Assembly (NCBI GenBank): GCA_029556545.1
Contig: JAKQEQ010000069.1
Location: 1 to 64,000, forward strand
DNA length: 64,000 bases
Direction of reading: 5' to 3'
From: Candidatus Hydrogenedentota bacterium
Lineage (GTDB): Bacteria > Hydrogenedentota > Hydrogenedentia > Hydrogenedentales > JAGMZX01
Translations under genes and position numbers: made by a program
Part shown: one piece after another, positions 1,529 to 11,442 of the stretch
How positions within the stretch are numbered: position 1 is the first letter of the stretch
Layout: each line of letters opens with the position of its first letter
The notes under the pieces: model-generated
Databases searched by the model: none
Told to the model about the DNA's origin: nothing
The model's input: the letters and a program-made list of their open reading frames with translations, nothing else

Positions 1529-3958
<2,430 letters not shown>

Positions 3959-5476: not shown

Positions 5477-7204
5477 TTACGGCTTCTTATTGATGCGCGC
5501 GCCGATGTCAGGTTGATTTGTCGCCTCGGAAACAGGTAGAATCTCTCTGCGCTGTGGGCATTCGTCCACCCCCGAGCGGGGGCGTAGTTCAGTTGGTTTA
5601 GAACGCCGGCCTGTCACGCCGGAGGTCGCGGGTTCAAGTCCCGTCGCTCCCGCCATACTTTCACCCCTCATAATACCCCTGCAAACATTGGTTTCTCCTT
5701 GAAAACCGGGGTTTTTCGCGCCATAGGACAGCATAGAGCCGCTGTTATGGTTTCCTGATACGCTTTCGCCATGCCGCGCCCCTTTTTGACATGAAAAGCC
5801 GCCGCCGCGTGCAACAATCCGTGCAACATCGGGCCGGGCAGTCTTGCGGTCCAGGTCGGGCAGTCTTTCCACCGCGCCCGCCGTGTCGAGCATGGCCGGG
5901 TCCAGGTAGTGTTTCGCCGTCAAGGTCGGCGAATGATGCCTCATGAGCACTTGCGCCGTCGCCAGGGGAACGCCGCCGCCCGCGAGCAGGGAGCAGTACG
6001 TCATGCGCAGCGCGTGCAAGTCCGCCACACGTCCGCGTGCGTCATGCTTCGCGATATTCGCCGCCGCCAAGTCCCGGTCGAAAACCTTCACGCTTGACGG
6101 CGCATTCAGAAACAGCGCCTTGTCCATGTCGAGCCGCGCCGGAATAGGGCCGCCACGCCGCCTAGAATCCGCTCTGCTCCACGATAGGCGTTCCCCTAGG
6201 TACTCGATAAGGTCCGCCGCCAGACCGCCGCGTAGGGGCAGCGTAGCGCCTTTTCGGTTCTTCTCCGCTTCCGCCCGTAGTTGGATGCGCGGTTTCGGCC
6301 CGTCAAGGTCGAGATCGCCTATGCGCAGGGTCCGCGCCTCATTGAACCGCAAGCCGGTAAACGCCATGACCCGGTAGAACAGCGCACGCTCCCGCCCGAG
6401 TCGCCGTTTGTCTTCGAGCACTTCCGGGCGCACGTCCGCCGCCGGTTGCCCTTTGCGCGGGCCTCGCGTAATGCGTTGCACTTCCAGCACGGGCCGGGTT
6501 TCCGCCGCCTCGAAAAGCCGCTCCAATTCCTGCTCCGTCAGCGCCCGCCGCACGTGTCGCCGATCAAGTTCTTCCTTCGCCGCGTGCGTTTCTACAAGCG
6601 GGTTCGTAAGCAGCCGCCCCGTCTTAACGCACCATCGGGAGAAACTCACCATCGCCGCGCGGTAGACGTTGCGCCGCCGCGCCGAAAGTCCCGCCCGCGC
6701 CAGGTCGCCAAGCCATACCTCGAAGCGGGAACGGTTCAAGTCGCGCAAGAGCCGGAAATTGCAGCCGTCGAGTACGCGCCCCAAGTCGGCCCGGCGCTCC
6801 TTGATATGCCGCGCCGTCAGGTCGCGCCGGGTCATGTCGTCGAGGTAGGCGTCCACGTGTTCCACAAGAGGCACGCGCGCATGGTCCGCCGCTTCCGCCT
6901 CGCGTTCCGTGAGCAGTCCCGCCCGTTGCTGGGCCGCGCGCGCAAGCCATGCGGAGTAGACGCGCATCGCCTCGCCTCGGTCTTTGCACCCCGTGTTCTT
7001 TTCGCACAAGATACCCGCCCCGTCGCGGAATCGCCCGGAGTAGGTCGCGCTTTTTTCAAGAACGCGGTCGCCGTTCTTCGATACCCGCCCCTCGTGCTTG
7101 CGCCCGTCCGCGCCCGTCCAGCGCACCCACGCCTTACCCTTGCGCGTGAATCGCTCCGCGCCCTCGGGCATAGGCCTCGATATGCTTTTCTTGAATACGC
7201 TCAT
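5477..7204 (-). CDS. int: Tyrosine recombinase (integrase) whose frame crosses attL into the host tRNA
   Basis: The 575-residue frame carries the tyrosine-recombinase catalytic set: Arg286 (FTGLRFNEA), His397 and Arg400 (DLHALRMTY), His423 or His424 (MRHHSPTLTAKHY) and nucleophile Tyr433. An N-terminal core-binding region (about 110-200) precedes it. It should integrate and excise the element at tRNA-Asp. The frame does not stop inside the element: residues 517-532 are the antisense of the 48-bp core, and the last 43 residues are host sequence antisense to the tRNA and its 5' flank. In an excised circle the same frame would instead enter the 83-codon tail now at 10922-11173, giving about 615 residues. 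The start overlaps the upstream regulator stop (ATGA). Confidence 0.93.
   Translation of the reverse strand: MSVFKKSISRPMPEGAERFTRKGKAWVRWTGADGRKHEGRVSKNGDRVLEKSATYSGRFRDGAGILCEKNTGCKDRGEAMRVYSAWLARAAQQRAGLLTEREAEAADHARVPLVEHVDAYLDDMTRRDLTARHIKERRADLGRVLDGCNFRLLRDLNRSRFEVWLGDLARAGLSARRRNVYRAAMVSFSRWCVKTGRLLTNPLVETHAAKEELDRRHVRRALTEQELERLFEAAETRPVLEVQRITRGPRKGQPAADVRPEVLEDKRRLGRERALFYRVMAFTGLRFNEARTLRIGDLDLDGPKPRIQLRAEAEKNRKGATLPLRGGLAADLIEYLGERLSWSRADSRRRGGPIPARLDMDKALFLNAPSSVKVFDRDLAAANIAKHDARGRVADLHALRMTYCSLLAGGGVPLATAQVLMRHHSPTLTAKHYLDPAMLDTAGAVERLPDLDRKTARPDVARIVARGGGFSCQKGARHGESVSGNHNSGSMLSYGAKNPGFQGETNVCRGIMRGESMAGATGLEPATSGVTGRRSKPTELRPRSGVDECPQRREILPVSEATNQPDIGARINKKP
5578..5655 (+). 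tRNA. tRNA-Asp (GUC), CCA encoded
   Basis: The cloverleaf can be drawn directly: acceptor GGGGGCG (5578-5584) with CGCTCCC (5645-5651, one G-U), D arm GTTC/GAAC, anticodon stem CCGGC/GCCGG with loop CTGTCAC giving anticodon GTC at 5613-5615, T arm GCGGG-TTCAAGT-CCCGT, discriminator G and encoded CCA. The 3' part from 5609 is the attachment core of the integrated element and is kept intact, so the tRNA stays functional. The integrase reading frame crosses it in antisense. Confidence 0.97.
5609..5656. other. attL, 48-bp attachment core inside tRNA-Asp
   Basis: It is identical over 48 bases to 11174-11221; the flanking bases differ on both sides (5608 G against 11173 C, 5657 A against 11222 T). 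It covers the anticodon loop through the CCA end plus one T. Read on the minus strand it is exactly 16 codons, MAGATGLEPATSGVTG, in frame with the integrase. Confidence 0.95.
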
Positions 7205-7431
7205 GCCCTCTTACCTCTCCTTCGAGTCTGCTTGCACTCGATGCCGAAGTACTCCGCGAGCGTGTCAGCCTTGTCGAGCCGCAGTGTGCTCTTGCCCTTC
7301 ACGAAAGCCATGATGCATTGCCGTGGAACGCCGGTATCCCGCTCGATGCCAAGGTACGTCGGCGCATCGAGGATCGCTTGCCGGAGTAGGTCGCTCATGG
7401 AACCCTTCGAGATATGCCGTTGTTTCGCCAT
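7201..7431 (-). CDS. Small HTH regulator of the element (Cro/CI-like)
   Basis: About 76 residues, with a compact helix-turn-helix (TYLGIERDTGVPRQCIMAFVKGKSTLRLDKADTLAEYF region, residues about 23-60) and a basic C-terminus (KQTRRRGKRA). ATG 7431 is preferred to ATG 7437 because an AGGA site lies about 8 bases upstream of it but only 2 bases upstream of the other. Its stop overlaps the integrase start in an ATGA, so the two are translationally coupled and the protein may control integrase or the element's own promoters. The target is not known. Confidence 0.75.
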   Translation of the reverse strand: MAKQRHISKGSMSDLLRQAILDAPTYLGIERDTGVPRQCIMAFVKGKSTLRLDKADTLAEYFGIECKQTRRRGKRA

Positions 7432-7472
7432 GTCCATATTCCTACATTATTTCCGCGCCGTTGTCAAGTGCC

Positions 7473-7901
7473 TTAGACGACATTGATGTCGGATTCATCG
7501 TCGTCGTCATCCGGGTCGAGGGCATCGACCGGGGCCGGGGCCTTCACGCCGCGCGCCCGTGGGGTCAGCCCAAGTTCACGCTCGATGCGGAGCATTGCGC
7601 CGGACAACGAGACGAAATCTCGCGTGCTCATGTTGGGGTCGTCATCCAGCATCGCCCGCGCCGCACAATATCGCCCGAAAAGGGGAAGGGCAAGGGCATC
7701 CACCACGCCGCGCTCGACAAGTCGAGGTAGCGCCTCCTTCCATATGCGCCTGGCGGTCGCGTTCAAGTGTTTCGGCGGATCGGGCACGTGGTCCAGGGCC
7801 ACCGCGCCGCCGCCAGGGGTCGCCGCACTCTGGCGTAGCCGCTGATAGCGTTGCGCCCTCGACAGTTGAGAGATCGGTTTCATTTTCGGTCCGCATTTCA
7901 T
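7473..7901 (-). CDS. P27-type phage terminase small-subunit-like protein (copy 1)
   Basis: The start at 7901 is supported by AGGAGA 8 bases upstream; an upstream in-frame extension to 8015 would overlap the neighbouring gene. The 142-residue product has a basic N-terminus (CGPKMKPISQLSRAQRY), a helical middle (LNATARRIWKEALPRLVE) and the ELGLTPRAR segment typical of P27-family small terminases, then an acidic tail (DPDDDDDESDINVV). Small terminases recognise phage DNA for packaging. The gene to its right, 7945-8331, shares the N-terminal and C-terminal signatures and is probably a duplicate. No large terminase is present in the element. Confidence 0.7.
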   Translation of the reverse strand: MKCGPKMKPISQLSRAQRYQRLRQSAATPGGGAVALDHVPDPPKHLNATARRIWKEALPRLVERGVVDALALPLFGRYCAARAMLDDDPNMSTRDFVSLSGAMLRIERELGLTPRARGVKAPAPVDALDPDDDDDESDINVV

Positions 7902-7944
7902 GGTTGTGTCTCCTATGGTTTCCCGCGTTGTTGTCGGGTCCGCG

Positions 7945-8331
7945 TTAGACGATCTTGAGATGCGATTCGTCGTCATCCGGGTCGATGGGGTCGGTCGGCT
8001 TGACGCCACGGGCAAGCGGCATCATTCCGAATTGCCGGGCAAGCGGTTGAATCACTCGGGTCAGCGCCACACGTTCTTGGGCAGTGCCCGCCCGCTCGAA
8101 GTCCGCGAGCAGGGAGCACAGGATCGCCAGGGCCGGGCCGTCTATCGGCGTCAAAGTGTTCGTCAGTTGCAGGGCGATGCGTTCCCAGTGGCCTTGGGCC
8201 GCCGCGTCAAGCGTGGCCGGGCACTCGGGCATACCCCGCTTTAGTTGCGCGCCCTCGCCTTGCCGCTCTCGAACGTACCGTTGCGCCCTCGACAATTCGG
8301 AAAATGGTTTGTGTTTCGGTCCAGATCGCAT
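7945..8331 (-). CDS. P27-type phage terminase small-subunit-like protein (copy 2)
   Basis: The 128-residue product starts after an AGGGAGA site. It shares with the adjacent copy the N-terminal pattern SGPKHKPFSELSRAQRY, a helical middle (LDAAAQGHWERIALQL), the QFGMMPLARGVK segment (equivalent to ELGLTPRARGVK) and an acidic end (DPDDDESHLKIV). Middle sections are strongly diverged, so this is an old tandem duplication, or two proteins with different recognition specificities. It is separated by 43 bases from copy 1 and probably cotranscribed. The family call rests on the C-terminal motif and helical pattern and is moderately secure. Confidence 0.65.
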   Translation of the reverse strand: MRSGPKHKPFSELSRAQRYVRERQGEGAQLKRGMPECPATLDAAAQGHWERIALQLTNTLTPIDGPALAILCSLLADFERAGTAQERVALTRVIQPLARQFGMMPLARGVKPTDPIDPDDDESHLKIV

Positions 8332-8365
8332 GATTCTATCTCCCTATGGGTTGTATCCCGCCGCC

Positions 8366-8635
8366 TTAGCGAGATATTTTTCGTCTTGAATCCGTGCGTG
8401 CGATTAGCCAATCGGTAGTCGCGCAATCGCTCTGTGAAAACGCACCCCATATCCCCCTCGGGTCGTGTTCCGGTATGACTTCGCCGTCGTTCGTGCGATA
8501 GCGGGCATCCAGGGCCGTGTGAATTGTGCGAGTTGGGCCGGGGCCGGGGTTCGGGCCGAAACCGCCCGAGTTCGGGCCGCTTACAGTAGATGCGCCTATT
8601 CCGAGAGAAAAAGAACCAAACCAAGCCGCGCGCAT
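8366..8635 (-). CDS. Possible small protein of the element, unknown
   Basis: An 89-residue frame between the terminase-like genes and the iteron array. The middle is Gly/Pro-rich and the C-terminal half (ALDARYRTNDGEVIPEHDPRG, then IWGAFSQSD) looks protein-like, with mixed codon use. No clear ribosome site is seen before ATG 8635 and no family is recognised. It may equally be a non-coding spacer next to the repeats. Confidence 0.3.
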   Translation of the reverse strand: MRAAWFGSFSLGIGASTVSGPNSGGFGPNPGPGPTRTIHTALDARYRTNDGEVIPEHDPRGIWGAFSQSDCATTDWLIARTDSRRKISR

Positions 8636-8665
8636 CCACGCCGCCAGCAATGGTATATTAAGATC

Positions 8666-8801
8666 ACCGCAGTGAGTGCGGTAGGTCACAAGGGCAAGAG
8701 ACGCAAGCATCCCCGCAGTGAGTGCGGTAGGTCGCCTGATACCCCCCGCAGTGAGTGCGGGGATACTTTCCGCTACCCCCCGCAGTGAGTGCGGTAGGTT
8801 T
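8666..8801. repeat. Four palindromic iteron-like repeats
   Basis: The 15-bp palindrome CCGCAGTGAGTGCGG (5-bp arms, GTGAG loop) occurs exactly four times, starting at 8667, 8713, 8746 and 8780 (spacing 46, 33 and 34 bases). Three of the four are followed by TAGGT. The last is followed by a T tract, so it could also work as a terminator for a plus-strand transcript. The array directly follows the 3' end of the winged-helix gene (8814-9314). It may be a replication origin, a binding site for the element's own regulator or a packaging-recognition site. Confidence 0.85.
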
Positions 8802-8813
8802 TTTTCGTGTAGC

Positions 8814-9314
8814 CTACCGTGCCTCATGTCGCATCTTCTCCCGGAATTCGCGCCGCCGCTTCTTGCTACGGTTGATCCGCTGCTTGCGCATCGCGTCGAA
8901 TTTATCGAGGGATCGCCGCTCTTCCGGCGTCGGCGTGTAGGACTCCCATCGTGCGGATGGTCGGTATCGGGTCGCCCCACCGGGCGTATCCGGTTGATCC
9001 TCGCCTCGGACCTCGAAGAAACCGACGCGGAGCCATTGCCGCCAGCAAGCGCGAAAACCATTCTCGGATACCTGCACACTCGTCGCGTTCCAAGTGAACG
9101 AAAACGCCTCGCCTTTTTTCTCCCATGCAGTAGCGTGAAAATATGCAGCGAAGACCTCCGGGAGCAGGGCTTGCGCGGTCTTCGTTAGGACTCGATAGGC
9201 GTCGCTCTTGAGTAGGTCGCGAGAGATCGGATAAGTCAGGTCGCCGGGCCGGTGCAGGAAAACATTGAACGGTGATAGCGTCCGCCGCTGCTTTCGGAAT
9301 CTGTCTTTTCCCAT
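8814..9314 (-). CDS. Winged-helix, replication-initiator-like protein of the element
   Basis: ATG 9314 is chosen because a GGGAGG site lies 5 bases before it. The 166-residue protein has a helical core (RDLLKSDAYRVLTKTAQALL) and a strand-rich wing (FSFTWNATSVQVSENGFRACW), a layout like plasmid/phage replication-initiator or helix-turn-helix proteins. A strongly basic C-terminus (KQRINRSKKRRREFREKMRH) fits DNA binding. Its gene lies directly beside four palindromic repeats, as Rep genes often do beside iterons. No catalytic motif of a relaxase or rolling-circle Rep was seen. The replication role is inferred from context. Confidence 0.5.
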   Translation of the reverse strand: MGKDRFRKQRRTLSPFNVFLHRPGDLTYPISRDLLKSDAYRVLTKTAQALLPEVFAAYFHATAWEKKGEAFSFTWNATSVQVSENGFRACWRQWLRVGFFEVRGEDQPDTPGGATRYRPSARWESYTPTPEERRSLDKFDAMRKQRINRSKKRRREFREKMRHEAR

Positions 9315-9395
9315 GCTCACCTCCCTTACCCGACGCGGGCGCAGCCGGTGAGCAAGCCGCAGCCCGCGCCGGGCATGGGGTTACCCCCAAAGTGG

Positions 9396-9614
9396 TTAAC
9401 TTCGCGCCACCGCCCGCGCCTTGCCGCATCCACAGCGCATCACCGCGTCGATGTCGCTACGCCGCCAGCGCCGCGAGCCGCCAAGCGCAACAGGCCGGGG
9501 CAATTGCCCGCTGTCGGCGAAGCGCCAGACGGTTCTCTCGCTTAGCCGCAAGGTCTGCGCAACCTCCTTGACGGTCATCAATTGATCAGCGTTTTCCATT
9601 GCCTTCGTTCGCAT
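9396..9614 (-). CDS. Excisionase-like HTH protein (AlpA/HTH_17 type)
   Basis: The 72-residue protein starts 8 bases after a full AGGAGG site. It contains the MerR-like winged-helix signature LMTVKEVAQTLRLSERTVWR and a following SDIDAVM recognition segment, as in AlpA/Xis-type excisionase or DNA-binding proteins. It probably directs excision or regulates element genes. A strong promoter lies just upstream on the same strand, with an inverted-repeat operator candidate behind it, so it may be the first gene of the element's early operon. Confidence 0.8.
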   Translation of the reverse strand: MRTKAMENADQLMTVKEVAQTLRLSERTVWRFADSGQLPRPVALGGSRRWRRSDIDAVMRCGCGKARAVARS

Positions 9615-9646
9615 CGTGCGAGCCTCCTTGGTTGTCGCTGGTGTTG

Positions 9647-9675
9647 ATGCTACACTATTTTGCAGGGAATGTCAA
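9647..9675 (-). promoter_or_regulatory. Sigma-70-type promoter for the excisionase-like gene
   Basis: Read on the minus strand: TTGACA (9675-9670), a 17-base spacer, then TAGCAT (9652-9647), 33 bases upstream of the start codon at 9614. Confidence 0.7.
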
Positions 9676-9682
9676 GTCTTCC

Positions 9683-9729
9683 CCTGTTGTGAAATGCTAT
9701 CTATATACTGTTAGTATACAGTCAACAGG
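9683..9729. promoter_or_regulatory. Nested inverted repeats, operator candidate
   Basis: The perfect palindrome TATACTGTTAGTATA (9704-9718) sits between CCTGTTG (9683-9689) and its inverted copy CAACAGG (9723-9729), right behind the excisionase promoter. It is much more AT-rich than its surroundings. The rest of the gap 9615-9990 shows no convincing gene. Confidence 0.65.
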
Positions 9730-9990
9730 CAGAATGCCGCCTGTTTACGGGGGTATTGTTGCTTGAAAGCATGCAGAAAACAGGCGCGACAGCCTATGCC
9801 GCCGCGCCCTCGTGGTCGCCGTCGTGGACGTTACGGCCGCCTATACCGCCGCCGCCTCAAAGCGCGAAAGCCCTTGAAAATAAAGGGCGATTGCGAAATG
9901 GCGGCGCAAGTCGGGAAATTTTCCATGAGAAGATCGCGCGAAGGTATACACGCGGAGCCGACCGCCTCATTTCCGCCCGGAAGTACCTTT

Positions 9991-10497
9991 TCATTTCCGG
10001 GTTCGCTCGACCGCCTCACGGATGCTTGCCGCTGATCGCAAAAAGTATAAGTCACTTCCCGCCGCGGCGCTCTTCGCCCGCAGGTCGAGCAAGTCGGCCA
10101 CGTCAAGCAATTCCGCCCGCGTGCCCTCGTAGACTACGAGATCGTCTGGGTCTACACCGTCGAGGAAGTCGAGGAAGTCATCGAAATGGTAGGGCCGCCC
10201 CGCTTTCCCTTGGCAATGCTCTGCGAATAGGTGAATGATGAAATAATCCCAAGGTGGTTGCACCTCCTCGGGCAAGTCCGTCGCGTTGCCGTCCACGAGC
10301 CGGAGCAGGTCGGTGGCCGGTATGCCATGCGGATATTTGCCCTGAAAGTACCGCTGGGTCGCGCCCGAGTCGATGCCCGGATACGCGGTCGCCAGGGCAC
10401 GGGCCGCCAGTGATGCGCCGATATTCGCGCCGGGGTTTCGCGTGAACATGTCTCGATAATGGTCCACGTCTCGAAGTTGCTGTGTCCCTTGGTTCAT
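9991..10497 (-). CDS. Element protein of unknown function, 168 aa
   Basis: ATG 10497 is supported by AAGGAGAG about 8 bases upstream; a longer frame to 10671 has no such site. The product is acidic in the middle (FDDFLDFLDGVDPDDLVVYEG) and mostly helical. It contains GATQRYFQGKYPHGIPATDLLRLVDGN in two pieces, reminiscent of the layout of small phage DNA-binding regulators, but no family is recognised. It lies between the excisionase-like gene and the Cys-rich gene, all on the minus strand. Confidence 0.6.
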   Translation of the reverse strand: MNQGTQQLRDVDHYRDMFTRNPGANIGASLAARALATAYPGIDSGATQRYFQGKYPHGIPATDLLRLVDGNATDLPEEVQPPWDYFIIHLFAEHCQGKAGRPYHFDDFLDFLDGVDPDDLVVYEGTRAELLDVADLLDLRAKSAAAGSDLYFLRSAASIREAVERTRK

Positions 10498-10664
10498 GTC
10501 CTCTCTCCTTGTGCCGTTCACCCTCGGCCCTATGCCGTGGGTTGTTGCCTGTGCTCGATACGTGGCCGTCCACAGTGCGCCAGGAACGCCGACCGGGGCC
10601 GGATGGTGTCTTACCCTTGCCGGGTCGCCGTTCGCGCCGGGAAGCGCACGCCCGTGCGCAAGAA

Positions 10665-10925
10665 TCAGCATAGCGAGGCTTTCACAAGCACCTTGCCGGG
10701 GTCCGCCGCGCGTTTCGGTCGCCTACCCGCCCGGTAGGGCCATAACGGGCAGTCCGTGATCGCGCATCGCGTCACCTCCGCCGGTTGCCCGCCGCAGCAG
10801 TCGATGCACTTCGCGCGCATGGCCTTCATGGGCCGCAAGGCCGGGTCGATGGTGAAATCCCATCCAGTCAACGTGTCGCGCACCTTGCCGGGGTTCCTCA
10901 ATAGCAGTTGCCGAATCTTCTTCAT
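10665..10925 (-). CDS. Phage-type zinc-ribbon-like Cys-rich protein
   Basis: An 86-residue protein with the motif AMRAKCIDCCGGQPAEVTRC followed by DCPLWPYRAGRRP. This Cys pattern (CxxCC...C...CPLWPYR) recurs in small phage and prophage proteins and probably binds zinc; its role is unknown. Its start overlaps the stop of the upstream frame 10922-11230 in an ATGA. In the excised circle that upstream frame would be the integrase tail, so translation of this gene could depend on integrase translation. Confidence 0.7.
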   Translation of the reverse strand: MKKIRQLLLRNPGKVRDTLTGWDFTIDPALRPMKAMRAKCIDCCGGQPAEVTRCAITDCPLWPYRAGRRPKRAADPGKVLVKASLC

Positions 10926-11230
10926 GCCGTAGCATCCTTCGGGTTATCGCCCACGAGTAGCCGCACCAGGGTCGCCCGCTGTTCGGGGTCGAGGTTGCGG
11001 ATCGCCGCCGCCAAGCCTTCGAGAGGGTCGAGGTCCGCACCAGTCGCCGGGGCCGGATCGGGGGCCTCGGAGTGCAACATTTCGGCGTCGGGCGTGCAAC
11101 AATCCGTGCAACGCGGGGTTTCGGAAATGTGTAAGTCCTTGTTCCCCGCGCACTTATCGACAGGGGGCTTCCCGCCTGTCACGCCGGAGGTCGCGGGTTC
11201 AAGTCCCGTCGCTCCCGCCATTGAAAGCAC
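10922..11230 (-). CDS. Detached integrase C-terminal tail at attR
   Basis: A 102-codon frame enters from host flank (GTG 11230 or ATG 11221), reads the attachment core as MAGATGLEPATSGVTG and continues for 83 element-encoded codons ending in AIRNLDPEQRATLVRLLVGD and NPKDATA. The core is read in the same phase as in the integrase at the left end. So in a circularised element this is the natural C-terminus of the integrase; in the integrated state it is cut off from its promoter and catalytic part. It contains CTDCC, so metal binding is possible. As an independent gene it has no clear ribosome site. Confidence 0.8.
   Translation of the reverse strand: MLSMAGATGLEPATSGVTGGKPPVDKCAGNKDLHISETPRCTDCCTPDAEMLHSEAPDPAPATGADLDPLEGLAAAIRNLDPEQRATLVRLLVGDNPKDATA
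11174..11221. other. attR, 48-bp attachment core
   Basis: Exact copy of 5609-5656, holding only the 3' part of tRNA-Asp (anticodon loop to CCA). It marks the right boundary of the integrated element; host sequence resumes at 11222. Confidence 0.95.
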
Positions 11231-11289
11231 TGCGCGGCAATGGGTTACGAAGATTTCCCTTGCCGCGCTTTCTTCATTCCCCCACGCGC

Positions 11290-11442
11290 AAATCCCCTTC
11301 CTCGTTCTCGTCCTCTTCCCCGTTCTCGTTCTCGTGCTCGTTCTCGTACTCGTTCTCTTCCTCTTCCTCTTCCTCTTCCTCGTACTCGCCCTCCTACTCG
11401 CCCTCCTACTCGCCCCAATTCGTGTAATTCGTGTGATTCGTG
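11290..11442. repeat. Pyrimidine-rich hexamer tract and ATTCGTGTA repeats
   Basis: The gap 11231-11574 has no gene. Positions 11290-11414 are a degenerate CTCGTT/CTCTTC hexamer tract. Positions 11417-11442 hold tandem nonamers (AATTCGTGT, AATTCGTGT, GATTCGTGG). Similar nonamers recur near 35518 and a similar pyrimidine tract near 26948. These look like a dispersed intergenic repeat family. Confidence 0.7.

Follow-up and report, generated by a model that had tools for sequence, protein, structure and literature searches.

Our findings support a model where a tyrosine integrase (Int) has its C-terminal tail exchanged when its element inserts into a tRNA gene; probably, this is an evolved and reversible swap of the kind known from phage Mx8, operating on tRNA targets with a conserved C-terminal module and bringing about an integration-dependent change of Int. 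That the swap is an evolved feature is strongly supported by the comparison of reading frames among related elements, an effect on the activity or direction of Int is plausible by analogy with phage Mx8, and a coupling of int to the next gene is possible, not general. The family is distributed across Hydrogenedentota and other members of the PVC group, with attP lying entirely within the 3' part of int.

The element from which the analysis starts lies in a 64,000-nucleotide stretch (hereafter the window) of Candidatus Hydrogenedentota contig JAKQEQ010000069.1 (assembly GCA_029556545.1), where 5.5 kb are integrated in tRNA-Asp (table 1). With an intact tRNA at one end, a 3' tRNA fragment at the other, and an integrase between them, it is a tRNA-targeted integrative element; the maximal exact repeat shared by attL and attR is 48 bp, extension past one mismatch giving 50/51 bp. 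An HTH_17 match (E 4e-12), a weak Phage_AlpA match (4e-4), and two phrog_83 small-terminase matches may point to a PICI-like phage satellite, a class defined by small size, int, an AlpA-type HTH, a small terminase, and helper-phage packaging. Gene content varies among the elements related to it.

Table 1. Features of the integrated element and its target, in positions of the window
Feature	Position	Strand	Evidence or remark
Tyrosine integrase gene, integrated (attL) form, 575 aa	5477..7204	-	PF00589, E 1.9e-12
tRNA-Asp (GTC), intact at attL, integration target	5578..5655	+	ARAGORN
attL core, 48 bp	5609..5656		Exact repeat
Integrated element between cores	5657..11173 (5517 bp)		Main genes all on the minus strand
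Candidate arm-type Int site inside int, two GTTGCACG 12 bp apart	5807..5827	-	Exact 21-nt repeat, layout common to relatives
Small Cro-like HTH gene, stop overlapping the int ATG (ATGA)	7201..7437	-	Weak Pfam HTH_26 match, below cut-off
Cys-rich gene, 86 aa, ATG overlapping the tail stop (ATGA, 10922-10925)	10665..10925	-	Homologues in other elements
Int tail severed by integration (83 codons + stop), phase continuous with int across the core	10922..11173	-	Homologous tails in relatives
Conserved helical hairpin at tail end	10952..11026	-	Alignment, purifying selection in relatives, AlphaFold2 pLDDT ~90
Candidate arm-type site matching that in int, located in the tail and read in another phase	11092..11112	-	Exact 21-nt repeat
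attR core, 48 bp, 3' tRNA-Asp fragment	11174..11221		Exact repeat

The integrase displays R286, K315, H397, R400, H423, and Y433, all invariant among 23 aligned relatives, and belongs to the tyrosine recombinase family; Y433 stands upstream of the core, which starts at codon 517. Its frame is element-encoded up to 5657, then crosses the core, and ends in 43 host-encoded residues. A codon boundary falls exactly at the core edge (5656), the 48 bp making 16 codons, and the frame at attR (10922-11230, minus strand) reads the core in the int phase, while the other two phases there close within it; the exact repeat and the frames thus bear out the equal phase that the original prediction had assigned to the two ends. 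It had further proposed that the circle form would gain an 83-residue element tail, in agreement with the uninterrupted 615-aa ORF that runs from the annotated ATG once the ends are joined in silico, 83 element residues replacing the 43 from the host. The latter had all been taken as antisense to tRNA-Asp: their count holds, yet only about the first 10 are antisense to the tRNA, the remainder being antisense to its upstream flank. As read from the two junctions, integration keeps the catalytic protein whole, severs 83 codons, and appends residues antisense to the tRNA and its flank. The window Int shows the structural traits of the Mx8 type: attP within the int coding sequence, a frame open in both configurations, and a catalytic part retained after integration. 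Nevertheless, a single open run is weak evidence in GC-rich DNA (one of the length of the window tail occurs at 10% in shuffled sequence and at 26% of same-strand positions of the window), and the case therefore depends on the relatives, namely on recurrence, matching phase, and a conserved tail.

Across the window genome and 67 other Candidatus Hydrogenedentota genomes (n = 68), close integrases were found in 23. The int ORF enters the antisense 3' end of a tRNA at 30 of the 34 loci sampled in this phylum, with many isotypes represented and each of the three reading phases in use, and the antisense tRNA plus flank append between 3 and 43 residues on integration in the elements examined. The notion that any antisense frame of a tRNA would supply a stop was rejected (134/291 frames). 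Where attR could be located by an exact repeat (20-58 bp; eight elements), the int phase remains open for 59-86 codons past the attR core in 8/8, the other phases reaching at most 29 and mostly stopping inside the core. A strict test was confined to attL/attR pairs on the same contig (the window, L057, L071, L070, L068, L042, L059, L054, L115, L111, L075, and L051 from Hydrogenedentota; L132 and L140 from other lineages): the tail is in phase with int in 14/14, with a chance of ~2e-7 if phase were free. Agreement rises to ~21/21 tails (20 distinct tails and one resolved apparent exception) with a wider set, in which same-genome integrases were matched via the core, some partners lying on other contigs and a few being loose (L214, L219). 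An apparent mismatch of L217/L221 with L051 was traced to a second copy of the hairpin lying 400 bp downstream, and the true attR copy agrees in phase. Integrases crossing att are permitted by Islander, given that integration can alter the gene in an Mx8-like manner (PMC4383910); weak profile matches without a good tRNA context (L211, L218, L222) were left out of the counts. Taken pair by pair, these frames show the severed tail to be kept in phase whatever tRNA or reading phase is used, and the attR side of relatives, rather than unrelated or frame-broken, carries a conserved in-frame tail. Catalytic region, core, and tail also stand in one ORF at a natural junction on G109 contig 270 (L272:9694-10866; tRNA-Ser), apparently between two tandem elements, and in decayed form at a tRNA-Lys core of the window genome (L063) and in G016 (L225); the joined ORFs observed are all tandem junctions or decayed copies. 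Elements derived from MAGs may partly be decayed.

The severed tails of Hydrogenedentota have in common, at their C-terminal end, a motif of the form LaaALrxLxxdeRxxLxxLL. A profile built from ten tails matches in 17/68 genomes of the phylum, nearly all also with the integrase, and about two thirds of its 30 hits, including nearly all strong ones, have an in-frame 3' tRNA fragment ahead, which extends from the acceptor end as far as about position 27-30. Pfam, NCBIfam, and PHROGs offered no family covering the tails above noise, and sequence identity of the hairpin is low between subfamilies. In close pairs, hairpin codons read in the int frame give pN/pS values of 0.09/0.75, 0.10/0.61, and 0.14/0.70; pN is below pS in 253/276 pairs in this frame, compared with 162/274 and 70/276 in the other two (pairs being non-independent). 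By these substitution patterns the hairpin is under purifying selection, and in the int frame only. On the window attR ORF, AlphaFold2 models the end of the tail as a helical hairpin with good confidence (pLDDT ~90), confidence being low in the rest. A passive by-product, where attP merely sits at the end of int and the frame simply continues through the core into a functionless tail, would fit the fact that open runs of such length are not rare in GC-rich DNA, and the arm sites by themselves would suffice to conserve the DNA; yet the uniform phase of the 14 same-contig pairs over different tRNAs, the conservation of the hairpin beyond the arm site, and the depressed pN restricted to one frame make this very unlikely.

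Could the attR tail instead be an independent small gene, active in the integrated state, with the fused frame incidental? It is a conserved ORF, and it often overlaps the start of the next gene. A separate gene is, however, very unlikely, since 20/23 attR copies have no Shine-Dalgarno-linked start (nor does the attR ORF of the window have one of its own); moreover, the int phase is maintained through the core, and in relatives without a tRNA core the hairpin is fused directly to Int (L127, L169). The tail might also act with the opposite polarity, as a degradation or inhibitory element rendering the circular form unstable and the integrated form stable, for which there is a precedent in a repressor whose gene holds attP close to the 3' end and whose phage form bears an ssrA-like tag (PMC6109161). 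We regard such a role as most improbable here: no common ssrA-like end occurs among the tails compared, their C-termini vary widely (DATA, ETRV, ENIT, GGRA, GEPH, GGGQ), and conservation sits in the internal helical hairpin.

A different use of the joined frame would be expression coupling, with int of the circle translated into the left operon, so that the genes there would stay silent until excision or entry. The main genes of the window element do lie on one strand, and in 13/23 tails the stop codon overlaps the start of the following gene (ATGA in 9, GTGA in 4). As the main purpose of the arrangement it is, even so, rather unlikely: 10/23 tails have no overlap, several overlaps open very short frames (a frame of at least 45 codons follows only 7 of the 13), and the conserved hairpin is left unexplained. 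The circle-only coupling to the Cys-rich gene originally proposed is partly supported: the overlap itself is recurrent, and the genes downstream of tails differ among elements. A universal ATGA coupling was rejected on the same counts.

Within both coding parts we also found candidate arm-type sites. In the window, a 21-nt exact repeat, GTTGCACGGATTGTTGCACGC, is placed 171 nt before the core, in int, and 58 nt after it, in the tail, the two copies being read in different phases. The same layout, an ~8-mer occurring twice with 12-bp spacing, is observed in most of 17 elements examined, about 110-210 nt before the core and 47-69 nt after it; the repeat sequence is private to an element or its close kin, yet common to both its arms, and a few repeats score no better than shuffles. 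By analogy with lambda-type anatomy, these matched repeats of 12-bp period are likely arm-type Int sites. Their candidate copies flank the core from both coding parts, so that the whole attP would be inside the int coding sequence. The candidate arm-type repeats of the window are GTTGCACGGATTGTTGCAC repeats. Neither the matched repeats nor the Mx8 precedent figured in the first reading of this DNA.

Outside Hydrogenedentota, single-sequence scans of genome and viral contigs yielded zero relatives, but alignment-based scans placed the integrase family in Planctomycetota, Verrucomicrobiota, and Lentisphaerota as well. Among isolates, Paludisphaera soli JC670, Cerasicoccus frondis, and Puniceicoccaceae K14 have an integrase of this type. 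Searched by tblastn at E 1e-5, 50,697 phage records gave no match to the window Int, nor was a clear tail evident at the far ends of viral contigs. Most long-tailed integrases beyond the phylum run into antisense tRNAs, in-phase attR tails being seen in a Lentisphaeria element (L132) and in L140. A second tail profile picked up a similar motif, WPxLPxxIRAGILAMV, in 21/33 genomes or records, and 20/30 inspected loci have an in-frame tRNA fragment ahead, some matches being short; such tails, analogous to those of Hydrogenedentota, are present in Planctomycetota and Verrucomicrobiota. Short-tailed relatives, which cluster on the tree, stop before the att site and integrate without such a tail, which is thus unnecessary for recombination as such. 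Tentatively, and with rather less confidence than for the tail swap itself, one may hypothesize a general control in the PVC group, in which a modular, C-terminal helical tail beyond an intragenic attP is lost on integration and returns with excision, and would serve as a directionality switch encoded by recombination.

How might the tail swap operate? In the model that we favour, of an evolved and reversible exchange, the circle would produce Int at full length, tail included, as the form suited to integration, in which the tail would help the recombination complex to assemble or become active. Int of the integrated state, deprived of this tail, would have altered, probably lower or different, activity, which would stabilise the integrated state, and excision would give the tail back, as reported for Mx8. 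The joining of int to the left genes of the element in the circle may add expression coupling. If this holds, many small orphan ORFs with a terminal motif like that of the second profile would be severed integrase tails; the model would account for a class of small hypothetical ORFs beside tRNA fragments, as well as for integrase C-termini that run antisense into tRNAs. The intragenic att is the rule here in a bacterial clade, with many tRNAs and a conserved severed module, and its elements provide a natural series for asking how a recombinase records its own reaction in its sequence and thereby controls direction.

The principle is already known from phage Mx8, and a limited literature search returned no description of a version that spans a clade, is built on tRNAs, and severs a conserved module. 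Mx8 integration is reported to exchange 112 C-terminal Int residues for 13 (PMC4701971, PMC6070905), the modified Int being described as less active in one (PMC4701971) and as changed in specificity in the other (PMC6070905). In these same accounts the Int of Myxococcus phages Mx8 and Mx9 (IntP to IntX) resembles ours in having attP inside a tyrosine integrase gene, with the catalytic part left and the C-terminus replaced. The window family differs in several respects: the 3' end of a tRNA serves as its core, it draws on many tRNAs and on each of the three phases, its severed module shows conservation throughout a bacterial clade, and both coding parts contain arm repeats. Streptococcal ICEs in rumA likewise have att within the integrase gene and an excised form with another C-terminus (PMC4701971), yet theirs is a serine integrase with a protein-gene target. 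Integration-dependent immunity in mycobacteriophages (BPs, Brujita) also places attP in a regulatory coding gene whose C-terminus integration changes (PMC4557955, PMC6109161), and some actinobacterial phages share this arrangement on a repressor gene (PMC6109161); there, the gene encodes a repressor, with an ssrA-like degradation tag in the phage form, while the window gene encodes an integrase. Finally, the suicidal (SSV-type) integrases, described as found only in Archaea, similarly hold attP inside the integrase gene, often in relation to a tRNA, and integration breaks the gene (PMC8371274). In that system the catalytic part is split from the N-terminal part; in the window Int, with Y433 upstream of the core, the catalytic domain stays whole and only the C-terminal module is lost.

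Within the tRNA-Asp-integrated element of the window, two phage small-terminase-like genes lie in tandem and overlap each other; no capsid or large terminase genes were recognised in the element, which is possibly a phage satellite. When compared by eye, its 168-aa protein resembles the 188-aa and 292-aa proteins of the elements at L054 and L068, two Hydrogenedentota loci with attL/attR pairs; these counterparts could represent a common core gene, perhaps with a role in replication. The element also carries four copies of CCGCAGTGAGTGCGG, a short hairpin (stem CCGCA/TGCGG, loop GTGAG), and these are possible iterons or protein-binding sites. Host DNA presents low-complexity repeats of its own: a Gly-Glu repeat region within a large protein (window 3492-3680) and, immediately beyond attR, an array of CTCGTT/CTCTTC hexamers (window 11283-11414).

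Coordinates of element genes, repeats and tail-related features
Feature	Location	Strand	Note
Small-terminase-related gene 1	window 7473-8015	-	phrog_83, E 6e-13
Small-terminase-related gene 2	window 7945-8331	-	phrog_83, E 6e-8
CCGCAGTGAGTGCGG, 4 copies	window 8661-8794		within 135 bp
168-aa protein gene	window 8814-9320	-	no family match
Tail hairpin, two copies (G016:C40)	L231:7681-7848 and 8094-8186
Apparent large serine integrase	L273:4198-6717

The severed integrase tail may also occur in further arrangements. In one Hydrogenedentota genome (G016, contig C40), the tail hairpin is present twice: another one, lacking a tRNA fragment, lies 400 bp downstream from the attR copy, which suggests tail duplication or the relic of an earlier insertion. 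In a viral-contig relative (L172, IMG/VR, 37 kb), the ORF extends 204 codons beyond the catalytic region, crossing a sense-orientation tRNA-like stretch (GDTGSNPVGTT) and continuing into an additional tail; this could be an attP form with a different layout. At locus L273, the C-terminal end of an apparent serine integrase comprises an antisense tRNA-like stretch followed by the same type of tail (WxxLPxxVRAGI): either the gene has come to adjoin a relic attR by chance, or serine integrases may be further carriers of the tail module.
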